The notes beneath the pieces were generated by a model, which had not been told where the DNA came from, made no database searches, and saw nothing but the letters and a program-made list of their open reading frames with translations. A program made the position numbers and the translations under genes. A stretch of 64,000 bases of DNA, from contig JANQPL010000016.1 of the NCBI GenBank assembly GCA_028289425.1, forward strand, positions 62,001 through 126,000, in the 5' to 3' direction. This document shows positions 55,995 to 62,593 of this stretch, piece after piece (the first letter of the stretch is position 1; every line of letters starts with the position of its first letter). This DNA is from Alphaproteobacteria bacterium (lineage in GTDB: Bacteria; Pseudomonadota; Alphaproteobacteria; JANQMY01).

Positions 55995-56963
55995 ATGTCC
56001 GAACCTCAAATTCTTGTTGCCGATATTGGGGGAACCCACGCGCGCTTTGCGCTTGCGCCTGAAGACGGCCGACCCGGCGAGCCGTCGGTGTGGCTCACCG
56101 CCATGTATGAAAGTTTGGGCGCGGCGCTTGCGGATTTTGTCTCGCGTCATCCCGGTGTTTCAATCACGGCAGCCGCCGTCTGCGCGGCCGGGCCTGTGAT
56201 CGACAATCAGATCCATATGACCAATTGTCCGTGGACGGTCAAACGGGACGAAATCGCGGATATTCTTGGGACGGAACAGGTCTTTCTGTTGAACGATTTT
56301 GCAGCCATTGCGGTGGCACTGCCCGGGGTGACCGGTGACGACCTGACGCCGTTGGGGGCGCCCGATGCCACTATGGGGCCGGGACCCAAAGTGGTGCTGG
56401 GGCCGGGCACCGGATTGGGCGTGGCGGCCCTGGTACCGGATGGCAAGGGCGGCTGGATCCCGGTCTCCGGCGAAGGCGGCCATGTGGACCTTGCGCCGGC
56501 AAGTAACCGCGAGATCTCCATCATCTACCAGCTTGCACAGGAATTCGGCCATGTATCGCCGGAACGGGTGGTGTCGGGCCCCGGGCTTGAGACGCTTTAT
56601 GCGGCGCTGTCGGCCCTTGATGGCCAAACACGCGATTCGCGCCCCAGCGCCGTCGACATTGTTGGCGCGGCGCGCCGCGGCACCGACCCGATGGCTCTGG
56701 AGGCGGTGCAGTTGTTCACCGGCTGGCTTGGGGCGCTTGCGGGCGATCTAGCCCTCACGTTTGGTGCCACCGGAGGGGTTTACATCGCGGGCGGCATTGT
56801 TCCTCAGTGGGGGGATCTTTTCGATGCTACTCTGTTCCGCCGCCGCTTCGAGCTCAAAGGCCGGTTCGATAAATATCTGGCGCCCATGCCCACATATCTC
56901 ATCACGGCCAAAGATGTGGCTCTGCGGGGGCTCGCGACGGTTGCCTTTCGTCGACAAAATTAG
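55995..56963 (+). CDS. glk: Glucokinase
   Basis: Phosphorylates glucose with ATP. The 322-residue protein belongs to the bacterial Glk family (not ROK). It shows VADIGGTHARFALAPEDG for phosphate binding, VFLLNDFAAIAVALPGV for the sugar site, VVLGPGTGLGVAALVPDG and GEGGHVDLAP. It is the last gene of the trehalose cluster. Glucose released by the GH15 enzyme would be recaptured here as glucose-6-phosphate. Confidence 0.95.
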   Translation: MSEPQILVADIGGTHARFALAPEDGRPGEPSVWLTAMYESLGAALADFVSRHPGVSITAAAVCAAGPVIDNQIHMTNCPWTVKRDEIADILGTEQVFLLNDFAAIAVALPGVTGDDLTPLGAPDATMGPGPKVVLGPGTGLGVAALVPDGKGGWIPVSGEGGHVDLAPASNREISIIYQLAQEFGHVSPERVVSGPGLETLYAALSALDGQTRDSRPSAVDIVGAARRGTDPMALEAVQLFTGWLGALAGDLALTFGATGGVYIAGGIVPQWGDLFDATLFRRRFELKGRFDKYLAPMPTYLITAKDVALRGLATVAFRRQN

Positions 56964-57365
56964 TCGCCCAATCGCTCACCAAATAGTTTTTTCTGTGGTT
57001 GGCAAAAGTAAGAACCCTCTAGCTTGTCATTTCCGATTTGAAATCGCGTAAAAAGTGACTTCTAGAGCTCAATTAACCATAGGTTTGGATTTTCCATTTG
57101 AAGACTTGAATTGCGATTATGTATTCCCAGCTAAGAGACCTACAAAGGTGCCTACGCACGCTGAAGTAGCTTGTCGTTTACTTTGTCAAGTTGGCAGGAC
57201 AGGTATTTGTGCAGGATTATCTGCATTGCTTGTCTCCAGTTTGCCTTCGGCTTACGCCAGAGGCGGATGACTGTTATGACAGTATAAACGATAACGTACG
57301 TATGTGGTGTGGACGTCGCCAAAATGGACATCGATGTCCCTAGTCGTTGAATGGGGAAGTAAAGC
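56964..57365. other. Non-coding, palindrome-rich leader upstream of the reverse transcriptase
   Basis: About 400 bp that is AT-richer than the neighbouring glk gene and has no credible protein gene. Small inverted repeats are frequent: CGATTT-G-AAATCG (57034-57046), TGCAG-GATTAT-CTGCA (57210-57225) inside a GACAGG/CTTGTC stem (57198-57234), ACTGT-TATG-ACAGT (57270-57283), ACGTACGT (57294-57301) and the 14-bp palindrome GGACATCGATGTCC (57326-57339). A weak promoter-like pair, TTGAAG and TGTATT spaced by 16 bases, lies near 57100-57125. Confidence 0.6.
57126..57365 (+). ncRNA. Candidate structured RNA preceding the reverse transcriptase
   Basis: A proposed transcript that would start shortly after the TGTATT element and run to the TTG start of the reverse transcriptase, about 240 bases. 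It would contain three well-formed stem-loops: 57198-57234, 57270-57283 and 57326-57339. Several solitary bacterial reverse transcriptases use an RNA encoded in this position as template or cofactor. No sequence match to a known RNA family was recognised; the boundaries and existence are inferred. Confidence 0.35.
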
Positions 57366-58919
57366 TTGAGCAAAGCCACTTGCGATTTTGCTTCCCCTAA
57401 CACCGATCCAGAGAATTCGATTGACTATTGGGAACCCTCCGTTCGGGACCTGAAGACCTATAGCCACTTCGACGCTGTCCTTCCAATTGATAAAATAAAG
57501 AAACTTGTTAGGGACCCGAAAGCTGTCTCACGACATTCATTCCGGCCCCTTCTTCAATTTGAAAAAAGATGGAGACGAGCACCAAAGAACGGCAAAGCAC
57601 GTCCCCCAAAAGTGAGGCCAATATCTTATGCGTGTCGAAAGGACGCTTACATATACAAGCATTATCGAGACTTATTGTCCCGACGATATGAAAGGAAATT
57701 GGCAGCTGCGAATTTGGGAGACGTAGTGCTGGCCTATCGCCGAATTCCGTCCGGAAAAACAGGTCGCTCAAACAAATCTAATATTCATTTCGCAAGAGAC
57801 GCGTTCGATGCGATTAATTCGGCCGGAAAATGTTGCGCGGTTGCAATTGACATCTCTGATTACTTCGGTTCGATCAATCACGAGAAGCTTAAGGGTTGTT
57901 GGGCTGAGCTAATTGGTCAAAGTCGGCTACCGCCAGACCATTATGCCGTATTTCGCTCCGTAACTCAGTATCGTTACGCAAATTTGGATGAGGTCCTTTT
58001 GGCACTAGGCTACTCGGAAATTGACAACTCCGGTGCGAAAAGATTCTCGATCCGTCCAAAAGAAATTCCGATTCAACTTTGCACGCCGGAGAACTATCGA
58101 ACTCATATCGTCGACCGAGGCTTGGTTCGCAAACATTCAAAGAGATCCGGTATTCCCCAAGGTACCCCAATATCCGACCTTCTGTCGAATTTGTTTCTAT
58201 TTGAGTTCGATCGAAAAATGCGCGACTACGCAAAAAATCGCAATGGTTATTATTTTCGGTATTCAGACGACATATTAATAATACTGCCCGGCGACGGTCG
58301 AGCCGGCAGTGGAGCGTTGCGAACAGTCTGTCGAGAGATACGCCTCGCGGGGGAAGAGCTGCAGATCAAACCAGAGAAAACGGACATCGTTTGTTTTCTG
58401 GGGAGAAGCGGTAGTCGCAGGTGCTACTCAATCGGACATTCGCGTGATCAGACTAGACGGGGTAGAAATTCACCAAACGAGGGGCTGTCGTACTTGGGGT
58501 TCAGATATGATGGAAAGCGCGTGTATTTACGGAACAGTACCATCACTAATCTGCGCGGAAAAATCGCTCGAGCATGCAAAGCGGCTGCTTTTCGCCACGT
58601 CCGGCGTCATCAAGAAAAGAACTTGGTTTGGTTGTTGGCGAACCGACCGTCAAACCAGCTTAAGCAAGAATTCATGAATGTTGAAGATTTCGATGAAGTG
58701 GTTAGCGAATCTCTGTTGAGTGGCGAAACGCCATTCAAGCACATGACATTTTGGAGCTACGTGAAAAGAGCCCGGAAGGTTTTTGGCGAGCGTGGCGGAC
58801 ACATGATGAAGCAGCTCGCAGGGATCGAAGACACTATTGAGACGACTTTTAAAAAGGAAATCCAAAAAAAGTATAAGAACGCAAAACGAAAGAAACACCG
58901 CACAACAGCGTTTAGGTGA
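57366..58919 (+). CDS. Solitary reverse transcriptase, likely defence-associated (UG/DRT-like)
   Basis: A 517-residue reverse transcriptase. Finger motifs include RPISYACRKDAYIYKHYRDL (84-103). Motif A is AVAIDISDYFGSI with Asp162, motif B is GIPQGTPISDLLSNLF (262-277), and motif C is YFRYSDDILIIL with Asp301/Asp302. Motif D is LQIKPEKTD, and motif E/thumb is LSYLGFRYDGKRVYLRNSTI. The C-terminal block TFWSYVKRARKVFG and a Lys/Arg-rich tail follow. No maturase, HNH, integrase or retron-type motif is seen. The start is a TTG with GGGGAAG upstream; no ATG is available before the core. The codons are AT-richer than its neighbours (many AGA, CGA, ATA), suggesting acquisition by transfer. The subgroup cannot be fixed by eye. 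Confidence 0.88.
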   Translation: MSKATCDFASPNTDPENSIDYWEPSVRDLKTYSHFDAVLPIDKIKKLVRDPKAVSRHSFRPLLQFEKRWRRAPKNGKARPPKVRPISYACRKDAYIYKHYRDLLSRRYERKLAAANLGDVVLAYRRIPSGKTGRSNKSNIHFARDAFDAINSAGKCCAVAIDISDYFGSINHEKLKGCWAELIGQSRLPPDHYAVFRSVTQYRYANLDEVLLALGYSEIDNSGAKRFSIRPKEIPIQLCTPENYRTHIVDRGLVRKHSKRSGIPQGTPISDLLSNLFLFEFDRKMRDYAKNRNGYYFRYSDDILIILPGDGRAGSGALRTVCREIRLAGEELQIKPEKTDIVCFLGRSGSRRCYSIGHSRDQTRRGRNSPNEGLSYLGFRYDGKRVYLRNSTITNLRGKIARACKAAAFRHVRRHQEKNLVWLLANRPSNQLKQEFMNVEDFDEVVSESLLSGETPFKHMTFWSYVKRARKVFGERGGHMMKQLAGIEDTIETTFKKEIQKKYKNAKRKKHRTTAFR

Positions 58920-59015
58920 TTTCCAGATTCTCTAGAATATCGTTGCATCAAAGAAATAGTCTATGCGTCCACTGACGATTTTGTTTGATGTGACGAACTG
59001 AGGTGCCGATAGTTG

Positions 59016-59423
59016 CTAGAAGAAGTCTTCCGGCTCGAATTCGTCGAAGCTTGGGGGCTGGTCTGTAATCTCGTGCCACGGCGCTTTGGAACCCGCAAAG
59101 ATCTGAACCTGCGGGGCGATCCCCGGGTCGTCGTCGAAAGTGCCGGCGGGTATGCACACATAGTCGTCGTCCGCGTCCGACACCGGAAGGTTGGCACCGC
59201 AGATCTTGCAGAAGGCGCGAAAATTACCGGGCGACGATTCATACCGCGTGATCTCAGCGTCCCCCCTCGTCCATCGAAATTGGCCGCGTTTAATGTGAGC
59301 AAACGTGCCGTAGGATGATCCGCTTGCTTTCCGGCACATAGAGCAATGGCACAGATTCATAATTTCCGGCGCTTGCGCTAACTCAAAGGCGACCGCGCCG
59401 CATAGGCAACTTCCTCTAATCAT
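59016..59423 (-). CDS. GFA family (glutathione-dependent formaldehyde-activating enzyme-like) protein
   Basis: A 135-residue zinc protein of the GFA/CENP-V fold. The metal-binding cysteines are in GSCLCGAVAFEL, NLCHCSMCRKASGSSYGTFA and FRAFCKICGANLPV. The ATG at 59423 has AGAGG eight bases upstream. Despite the family name, most members have no proven formaldehyde activity. It lies on the opposite strand to the reverse transcriptase and marks the return to GC-rich chromosomal sequence. Confidence 0.88.
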   Translation of the reverse strand: MIRGSCLCGAVAFELAQAPEIMNLCHCSMCRKASGSSYGTFAHIKRGQFRWTRGDAEITRYESSPGNFRAFCKICGANLPVSDADDDYVCIPAGTFDDDPGIAPQVQIFAGSKAPWHEITDQPPSFDEFEPEDFF

Positions 59424-59451
59424 CCCAACGCCTCTCTCAGAAGCCACACAT

Positions 59452-60714
59452 TTATTTGATCGGTTCTACAATGGGTGCCGGTTCCGAAATGATCTCCGGT
59501 TCGATGATCGGCTCGGTCATCGGGGCGGCCTCGGCTTCAAGAGCTGGCGCAGCTTCTATGACCGTGTTGGGAGTGACCGCAACTTGCTCCGGCGCGATGT
59601 GGTAAATCGCGTAAGGGCCGCGCTCGCGCATGGTCGCTTCGTCGGCGGGCTGGGCGAATTGGTCAATCAAATCGGTCAAGCGGCTGTCTGTAAACCAAAT
59701 GGCGCCGGAGGTATCGACGGTCACGCTATCTGCCCAATCCACGTTTGGATCAGCGGTCAGTGTGCTGAGCGTTCCGTCAGGGGCTAAGGCGGCAAGTCCG
59801 CCATTTTCCACATCGGTCAAGATCACCGTGTTGTCCGGCAGCAACTCAATGCCGTCACTCAACGGTTTGTTGCCGATAAATTCAATCTGCACGTCTAAAT
59901 CCGCATCCGTAAGGCTCGCATCGAGAAGTGCTGCGGTGGGGATGCGATAGACGCTGTCATGTGACATGGTGGCGTAATAAAGCCACGCCCCGTCCTGGGT
60001 CAACGCAATGCCGTCAACGCCTACAACGAAAGTGAGCAGACCGAAGGCCAGCCGGTACCAATCTCCATTGGTTTTGCGCATGACCCAGTCCTGTGCACTA
60101 ACCGAGGGATGTCCCCTGAGCACTGTTCGTGCCGATTGGCTATCCACATCGAACACAATCAGATTGGCTTCCGTGAATTTGAATAGACCAGTATCCGCCA
60201 GGAAGACCGTCTTGCCGTTGGGGGACACGCGCATGTCCTGGGCAAAACCGGCCTCGCCGTCGGCAAATTTGTGCTCGATGAGCAATTCGCCACTGTCCCG
60301 GTCAATCGCCAGCAATTCGGTGCGGCGCCCGTCCAAGGCGCCGGGCTTGATCACCCAGAGCCGCCCCTGACCGTCGGCCGTAATGCCCATGGCGCCATGG
60401 AATTTGACCTGCATCTCTTTGTCGGGGAACGGCACGCCTTTGCCGTCTACCCATTCGAACACGGTTGCATCTACGAATCTCTCGGGCCGGTGCAGCATAT
60501 GATAGGTGTAGAAAATCCTTCCGTCGGGTGATGCTGCCACCATGCCGGGCGGGAAGGGCAATTGAATGGGCGCGCTGATGCGGTCGTCCGGCACGGTCGG
60601 TGCTGTGCTCACATTGGGATATGGCTCACCGCCGCCATACATTAGCTTGAGGACAAGATAAGTACCTCCGACTAGCGCCACCAAAAGCACCAATGTGCGG
60701 CCGATCCATTTCAT
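59452..60714 (-). CDS. Membrane-anchored beta-propeller of the major royal jelly (yellow) family
   Basis: A 420-residue protein with an N-terminal anchor (IGRTLVLLVALVGGTYLVLK) and an outside beta-propeller. MRJP-type blocks are MGITADGQGRLWVIKPGALD, GVDGIALTQDGAWLYYATMS, SVYRIPTAALLD and NVDWADSVTVDTSGAIWFTD. The C-terminal 50 residues are a Pro/Glu/Ile repeat-like tail (EPIIEPEIISEPAPIVEPIK). Bacterial members are uncharacterised or act as lactonase-like enzymes. SMP-30-type propellers are a less likely alternative. Confidence 0.78.
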   Translation of the reverse strand: MKWIGRTLVLLVALVGGTYLVLKLMYGGGEPYPNVSTAPTVPDDRISAPIQLPFPPGMVAASPDGRIFYTYHMLHRPERFVDATVFEWVDGKGVPFPDKEMQVKFHGAMGITADGQGRLWVIKPGALDGRRTELLAIDRDSGELLIEHKFADGEAGFAQDMRVSPNGKTVFLADTGLFKFTEANLIVFDVDSQSARTVLRGHPSVSAQDWVMRKTNGDWYRLAFGLLTFVVGVDGIALTQDGAWLYYATMSHDSVYRIPTAALLDASLTDADLDVQIEFIGNKPLSDGIELLPDNTVILTDVENGGLAALAPDGTLSTLTADPNVDWADSVTVDTSGAIWFTDSRLTDLIDQFAQPADEATMRERGPYAIYHIAPEQVAVTPNTVIEAAPALEAEAAPMTEPIIEPEIISEPAPIVEPIK

Positions 60715-60841
60715 GTGTGTCCCCCAACAAGCTACTCTTACCGGTAAATGCCCGATCCAAGCAGACTATGCCTGCCGAGGAAAAGTGCTGCAATCAAAGA
60801 TAGGTGAGGGATTATGCCTGTGATGGGGCATCCCATTTGTG

Positions 60842-62593
60842 TTAGTCGCCGAGCGCTACGCCTTCCCGGCGGGGGTCGGCGCCACCGTCAAGCGTGCCGT
60901 CCGGCAGGATGCGAATGCCGTGCAATCCACTGTTCAGAGGGCGGACTTTCACCTCATGGCCTAAGCGTTCAAGTTCCGGCGCAAGATCCACCAGGGTGGA
61001 CCCTTCTTCCAGTTCCAACAAGCCGTTGCGGTTCACGTGATGGGGGAGGGAAACGGCAGACTGCATATCAAGTTGCCAATCCATCAGCCCCACCAGTGTG
61101 TTGGCCACATAGGCGATGATACGGCTGCCGCCGGGGGAGCCCACAAGCGCGTAGAGCTTTCCCTCATCATCGAAGATGAGGGTAGGCGACATGGAACTGC
61201 GGGGGCGCTTGCCGCCATCGGGCGCATTTGCCACTTGCCTGCCATCGATCACCGGCTGCCGTGAAAAGTCCGTTAGCTGATTGTTGAGGATGAACCCGCC
61301 GGCGATCAAATTGCTGCCGAACACAAACTCCACCGTCGTGGTCATGGACACTGCATTGCCGTCCCCGTCCACAACACTGAAATGGCTGGTGGATGGCGCT
61401 TCGCGGGAAATCTGTGGGCTAAGATTGGTGTCTTTCTTAAGCGGCGTGCCCGGCTTGGCAATACCCATGGACCGGCGCGTGTCGATCAGTCGAGCCCGCT
61501 CCGCCAGATAGGTTTTGTCCAGCAGGGCATCGAGCGGAATGTCCACAAAGTCGCTGTCCGCCAGATACATGGCACGATCCGCGTAGGCGAGGCGGGAGGC
61601 CTCCGATACCAAATGCACGGCTTCAGTGGACGAAGGCTTCAGCGATGCCATATCAAACCCTTCCAGAAGCGATAGGATTTGCATCACCGTCGTGCCGCCG
61701 GACGACGGTGGCGGCATGCCGCACACCGTCCAGGTGCGATAGGGCCTGCAGATCGCCTCGCGGATCTTGGGCTGATATGCCGCCAAATCCGCCAGCGTCA
61801 TGGCGCCGGGATTGATCGGGGCGTTTTGCACCGCCTGGATAATCTGGTCGGCGATGACGCCCTTGTAAAACCCCTCAGGCCCCTGGGCCGCGATGATCCG
61901 TAATGACGATGCGAGTTCCGGATTCTTCAGCAAATGTCCTGCCGGAAGCGGCGTCCCACCGGCGTCGAAGTATAACGCCTGTCCGGCCGGGCTTTCATTG
62001 AAGGCCGGCGTCAGCGTGATCATCCGATGAAGCCGCGGCGATACTTCAAATCCGTTTTCGGACAGAAGGATCGCCGGCTCAAAAAGTTCCGCCCAAGGCA
62101 AACGCCCATGCTCCTGATGGGCCTGCCACAACATGGCGATGGCGCCGGGCACCCCGACCGATCGGCCACTTTTGACGGCGGTCAGAAAATCAAAAGGTTG
62201 GCCGTTGTCGTCCAGAAACAGTTCCGGCGTTGCCGCCGCCGGTGCCGTTTCCCGCCCGTCATAGGCAATCACTTTTTCCGTCTTGGGCGACCAATGCATG
62301 AGGAACGCGCCGCCGCCAATGCCGGACGATTGTGGTTCCACCAGGGTCAGGACGGCTTGGATCGCAATGGCGGCATCTACCGCCGACCCGCCCTTTTTGA
62401 GGATGTCGATGCCGGCTTGGCTTGCCAACGGATTGGCGGAACTGACCATTTGCGGCCCGTCGCCTTTCGGGGCGGCCGACGCCCCCTGAAACGGAACCCA
62501 ATCTGGAATACCGCGGCCGTTGCTGCAGGCGGTAATGGCAAAAGCAATGAGCAGCGCCGCCAAAAGCCGAATCGAACTGTTGAGTTTGGTCAT
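60842..62593 (-). CDS. ggt: Gamma-glutamyltransferase, lipoprotein form
   Basis: A 583-residue N-terminal nucleophile hydrolase that cleaves glutathione and other gamma-glutamyl compounds in the periplasm. The lipobox ITAC places the lipidated Cys at residue 23. Autocleavage should occur before the catalytic Thr in APSTSHFSVVDGDGNAVSMT. Other motifs are EPQSSGIGGGAFLMHW, GMPPPSSGGTTVMQIL and RPRSSMSPTLIF. The ATG at 62593 is chosen because the signal peptide starts there; the frame is open further upstream, into the divergent P1 peptidase gene. Confidence 0.93.
   Translation of the reverse strand: MTKLNSSIRLLAALLIAFAITACSNGRGIPDWVPFQGASAAPKGDGPQMVSSANPLASQAGIDILKKGGSAVDAAIAIQAVLTLVEPQSSGIGGGAFLMHWSPKTEKVIAYDGRETAPAAATPELFLDDNGQPFDFLTAVKSGRSVGVPGAIAMLWQAHQEHGRLPWAELFEPAILLSENGFEVSPRLHRMITLTPAFNESPAGQALYFDAGGTPLPAGHLLKNPELASSLRIIAAQGPEGFYKGVIADQIIQAVQNAPINPGAMTLADLAAYQPKIREAICRPYRTWTVCGMPPPSSGGTTVMQILSLLEGFDMASLKPSSTEAVHLVSEASRLAYADRAMYLADSDFVDIPLDALLDKTYLAERARLIDTRRSMGIAKPGTPLKKDTNLSPQISREAPSTSHFSVVDGDGNAVSMTTTVEFVFGSNLIAGGFILNNQLTDFSRQPVIDGRQVANAPDGGKRPRSSMSPTLIFDDEGKLYALVGSPGGSRIIAYVANTLVGLMDWQLDMQSAVSLPHHVNRNGLLELEEGSTLVDLAPELERLGHEVKVRPLNSGLHGIRILPDGTLDGGADPRREGVALGD

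Follow-up and report, generated by a model that had tools for sequence, protein, structure and literature searches.

The stretch of DNA analysed here (the window; 64,000 nucleotides of an alphaproteobacterial contig) very probably carries an anti-phage system of the DRT2 type, which belongs to a divergent and mainly alphaproteobacterial clade and would produce an endless protein (Neo) from a 120-nt template. In the Klebsiella system KpnDRT2 an upstream 280-nt ncRNA contains a central 120-nt template, stop codons in the neo gene abolish defence, and the conservation of the template is low (PMC12039810, PMC11100668). For the window the conservation and structure of the ncRNA, the template boundaries, the junction promoter, the stop-free frame and the ribosome site are predicted from sequence. 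RNA binding, priming, jumping, second-strand synthesis, the toxicity of Neo and phage defence itself are transferred from KpnDRT2 by analogy.

The gene of the reverse transcriptase (RT) is located on the forward strand at 57366–58919. It is an open frame of 517 amino acids from TTG at 57366, an annotated start that is uncertain, to a stop codon ending at 58919, and it occurs in one copy in its genome. The catalytic YSDD motif lies within FRYSDDILIILP, and Y299, D301 and D302 are invariant in 44 aligned sequences. The Pfam model RVT_1 is matched with 54.4 bits (cut-off 29.6), residues from about 461 to 471 read TFWSYVKRARK, and the tail is basic. An earlier note, made from the letters alone, had described a reverse transcriptase with intact catalytic core, this C-terminal block and a basic tail and had seen in it the traits of the UG/DRT reverse transcriptases; all of this is borne out, and the open frame is real. 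The PADLOC model PDLC03757 (Drt2) reaches 430.6 bits (next family 80.2). The NCBIfam equivalog model for Drt2, NF041746, is likewise the best match by far, with 346.2 bits, but stays below its cut-off of 390; therefore the enzyme is classed as a divergent variant of the Drt2 type and not as an equivalog. By sequence the nearest solved chain is DRT2 9c0i (E 3e-61; next distinct molecule 6e-5), and the AlphaFold model, built from the 44 aligned sequences (pLDDT 89), matches the same structure with Z 34.3 (412 of 425 residues aligned, rmsd 2.7; Foldseek 4e-32), followed in rank by the RT of a diversity-generating retroelement (DGR) with Z 22.3. Group II intron maturases (TIGR04416, 64.9 bits versus a cut-off of 300) and retron RTs (NF038233, 53.1 versus 235), two assignments which the earlier note had named as incompatible with its reading, were rejected because both cut-offs are missed. 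Assignment to DRT9 (UG28) was also rejected, as only 51 bits are obtained with the DRT9 profile.

In a quick tree of 87 RTs, in which several long branches outside the main clades are unsure, the window RT groups with those of L033, L034 and L036 (support 98). The larger clade comprises 72 mostly alphaproteobacterial RTs (support 99, stem 0.66), and the clade with the canonical gammaproteobacterial DRT2 loci is separate from it. Judged by profiles, structural model and tree, the RT is a divergent member of the known DRT2 type and not of an unnamed UG branch, and the phylogeny indicates a deep split between its clade and Klebsiella-type DRT2. The proposal of an undescribed system, to be recognized by placement on an unnamed UG branch, has to be given up, since by profile and structure the RT matches the characterised DRT2. 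What the earlier note had held to speak against its reading, a DRT type already characterised that has the same RNA upstream, is largely what was found; the predicted jump signal differs.

This RNA is predicted as a DRT2-type ncRNA of about 260 nt at 57140–57397 (forward strand, ends approximate), based on its fold and on the order of its elements, which is the same among relatives. The region 57140–57412 folds at z −5.4 versus shuffles. A 5′ handle hairpin is predicted at 57140–57169 (forward) from the fold of this piece alone, and its position matches that in relatives; the ends of the template are paired together in the predicted fold. The terminal hairpin of the scaffold (57353–57397, forward) overlaps the annotated RT start and is supported by compensatory changes, 8 of its 9 consensus pairs being changed on both sides among relatives. 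Rfam gave no match within 56500–59600, and the exact ncRNA pattern was not found in viral contigs. Scans of genome contigs and viral contigs with single-protein queries gave no match, but an alignment query did. The alternative formulated in the earlier note, an RT acting alone or with an RNA, holds as an either/or; it overlooked the upstream region, where the predicted RNA partner sits.

Two upstream motifs are prominent in the clade, TGTCAAG and ACAGTATA, which are reverse complements of sequences containing TTGACA and TATACT. The template was cut at the GT located 8 nt before TGTCAAG and at the GT 9 nt after ACAGTATA. This rule together with clade alignment and a profile scan predicts a reverse-transcription template of 120 nt at 57176–57295 (forward strand). 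By the cut rule and clade comparison the two copies of the jump motif, both on the forward strand, are GT at 57176–57177 and GT at 57296–57297, each extended to CGT by a preceding C (57175 and 57295). The motif reads GTT/GTA in the window and GTT/GTY in the clade. In head-to-tail joined repeats TTGACA (57184–57189, reverse strand) and TATACT (57281–57286, reverse strand) form, in the cDNA reading, the putative −35 and −10 elements of a promoter that spans the junction with a spacing of 17 nt; in the genomic order of the window template this promoter is not found. The only ACA copies of the window locus stand at 57142, 57199, 57279 and 57328, and none flanks the predicted template. An ACA-1/ACA-2 bracket of the KpnDRT2 type was rejected, since GTT/GTA is found at the template ends instead. 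A search for template ends with equal triplets in 57020–57130 yielded chance frames only. A standard DRT2 of the Klebsiella type, in which ACA directs the jump and the GT match is incidental, would fit the RT family and the overall layout of the ncRNA, but with no flanking ACA, a GT conserved at both template ends at 94–100% in the clade and a separate RT clade we regard it as highly improbable.

The proposed jump rule was evaluated across the clade. In an unbiased set of 35 loci, which were chosen by exact motifs alone with no GT or frame rule, the distance from −35 to −10 falls in one class modulo 3 in 34 loci, and the strongest letters common to both template ends are GT (34/35 and 32/35), placed exactly where the spacer measures 17 nt. 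Among the rule-found loci, all 54 whose length is a multiple of 3 share one open register, where shuffles predict 14, and the remaining antisense frames are open in two and one of them. With a profile scan, trained on divisible-by-3 loci and run without a length term, template lengths from 96 to 150 nt were obtained; in 65 of 68 relatives the length is a multiple of 3, and each of these 65 templates has its open frame in the same register. Since the loci are related and cannot be treated as independent, two more cautious counts were added. Among the 15 distinct template lengths 12 are multiples of 3 (binomial P 3e-4), and near neighbours differ in length by multiples of 3 in 35 of 41 cases. 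An in-frame start with Shine–Dalgarno sequence is present in 57 of the 65 loci (7.1 expected), and the hydrophobicity of Neo is above that of its own shuffles in every one of the 65. The jump motif pairs among the 68 loci are GT/GT (59), CT/CT (5) and mismatched (4); in most loci the match is just 2–3 nt long, and those four have none at the predicted point. The CT/CT loci, changed together on both sides, represent one rhizobial lineage, so this double change from GT may be a single event. As positive control, six canonical loci all gave ACA and open units divisible by 3 (111–132 nt), and the motif pair did not occur in 279 kb of background. A search of whole genomes and plasmids for further held-out loci yielded a single new one, G360, which fits with an open template of 123 nt.

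A few loci need separate mention. In G360 (L003, L144) the RT is split in two frames, with ncRNA template and neo frame intact, and L143 is apparently the same locus as L081. No site above the threshold of the profile scan was found in L041, L092, L093 and L096; in L041 the template ends are apparently present with TGTCAA (−35) lost, so that the junction promoter is possibly lost. For L049 and L089 the upstream sequence is truncated.

In the 120-nt repeat of the window a single antisense frame is stop-free. Translation of the joined repeat gives a putative neo unit of 40 codons without stop, VIVYTVITVIRLWRKPKANWRQAMQIILHKYLSCQLDKVN, at 57176–57295 (reverse strand). The frame and Shine–Dalgarno scan predicts an ATG start at 57224–57226 and a GGAG at 57234–57237 (both reverse strand), i.e. 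GGAG-N7-ATG inside the open frame. The resulting protein would be weakly hydrophobic (GRAVY 0.13). In the neo frame third codon positions are not enriched in substitutions, and codon-position as well as synonymous/nonsynonymous counts give no support for conservation of the amino acids of Neo. Selection on the exact protein sequence is therefore not clear; what looks constrained is its frame and composition, which agrees with the low conservation of the template in KpnDRT2.

Three relatives have templates not divisible by 3, namely L034 (130 nt), L036 (125 nt) and L044 (142 nt), the first two of which belong to the four-row subclade of the window. In all three the frame that begins with Shine–Dalgarno sequence and ATG crosses the junction and stops after 42–50 residues; a jump at CTC with a 16-nt spacer would make that of L034 endless. 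A finite neo, a shifted junction or an assembly error are possible origins of these lengths. That, in a clade using a 2-nt jump code (GU/CU), some members, i.e. these three, make a finite gene with its own stop in every repeat is a rather unlikely variant. The same three relatives without endless frame and the missing third-position excess would also suit an RT that makes repetitive DNA acting by itself, as in DRT9 or DRT10, with an incidental open frame. Yet frame, Shine–Dalgarno–ATG, hydrophobicity and junction promoter far exceed shuffles and match the features of KpnDRT2, where stop codons in neo abolish defence, and we judge such a DNA-based action to be improbable.

The TTG at 57366 lies in the loop of the predicted terminal hairpin, and residues 1–14 have pLDDT below 50 in the AlphaFold model, so translation probably begins downstream of the annotated start. 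In L034 an ATG is located after the terminal hairpin; accordingly the first residues of the window RT may go untranslated. The RTs of relatives begin past this hairpin, and start codons may thus be misannotated within the clade. Past the hairpin, no in-frame ATG, GTG or TTG is found near the N-terminus of the window RT. This, the position of TTG 57366 and the odd template lengths of the near relatives L034 and L036 could point to a decayed or domesticated copy that has an intact RT frame but has lost defence, e.g. for want of a good start codon. Against this, the 517-residue frame keeps all catalytic residues, and the window has an intact 120-nt neo frame with promoter and Shine–Dalgarno sequence; decay is unlikely, if slightly less so than an RT whose DNA product acts itself.

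The RT has metabolic genes as neighbours, with glucokinase upstream and genes for a GFA-family and an MRJP/SMP-30-like protein downstream. No protein partner is attached, in agreement with the earlier note, which had seen no partner genes. In a second genome of this genus, the one genome compared, the gap between glk and ggt is about 93 bp, so that the RT sits in a 3.9-kb stretch (56946–60844) missing there, which carries the ncRNA–RT unit, the GFA gene and the MRJP/SMP-30-like gene. From this genome comparison the glk–ggt interval is a variable slot; no integrase was seen in 56946–60844. The GC content near the RT is 46% versus 57.5% for the window. The order of this genome has two genomes only in the collection, and the window genome thus represents a poorly sampled alphaproteobacterial lineage.

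By analogy with KpnDRT2 the RT would bind its own upstream ncRNA and, once triggered (in the Klebsiella system by phage infection), would copy the 120-nt template repeatedly head to tail. The cDNA concatemer would become double-stranded, and with TTGACA placed 17 nt from TATACT at each junction RNA polymerase would transcribe a repetitive mRNA. Translation from the internal GGAG–ATG would give an endless protein of 40-residue repeats, and this Neo would halt growth and limit the spread of the phage.

With KpnDRT2 (PDB 9c0i) the window locus shares RT family and fold, a lone RT gene with an upstream ncRNA (about 260 versus 280 nt), the 120-nt template, TTGACA and −10 element spaced 17 across the junction, and a stop-free antisense frame with ribosome binding site and start. 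It differs in the jump motif (ACA there, GU(U)/GU(Y) in the window clade), in the position of the junction within the promoter, which is moved by 2 nt (8+9 versus 6+11 in KpnDRT2), and in an RT that is about 90 residues longer with 33% identity over the structure alignment. Full-length RT relatives are found in Azospirillum brasilense (L031), Paracoccus ferrooxidans (L032) and a Caulobacterales MAG (L033), with the same ncRNA elements, jump motif and Neo register; the alphaproteobacterial Drt2-like relatives differ from the window in template length (96–150 nt) and Neo sequence. The distant Drt2 locus on Rhizobium beringeri pRlX2 (L119; named drt2 by PGAP) has a 129-nt endless frame and a CGTT microhomology at the same place, but the RT tree places it outside the window clade, and its next neighbour is an FRG-domain gene. 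DRT9 (UG28) is also a class 2 DRT with RT, upstream ncRNA and repetitive copying; its product, however, is poly-dA made from a U tract (PMC12483538). Among the papers searched, which cover the DRT2 study as a preprint, no description of the jump motif of this clade and no paper combining DRT2, alphaproteobacteria and reverse transcriptase was found. As far as sequences tell, the kind of system is already known as DRT2, and new are the deep separation of the clade and an RNA with another template-jump signal.

DRT2 creates a gene that is absent from the genome. For divergent DRT2 clades ncRNAs were described as predictable but the annotation of Neo as “more challenging”, and other mechanisms were suggested (PMC11100668). 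For one such clade an answer is offered here, since about 65 loci give a consistent predicted Neo when a 2-nt match of GU or CU is taken in place of the ACA rule. The jump point shifts by 2 nt, and the promoter is still rebuilt with its 17-nt spacer. If true, the jump signal would be free to change provided that both copies match, and rolling-circle gene synthesis would extend to much of the Alphaproteobacteria.
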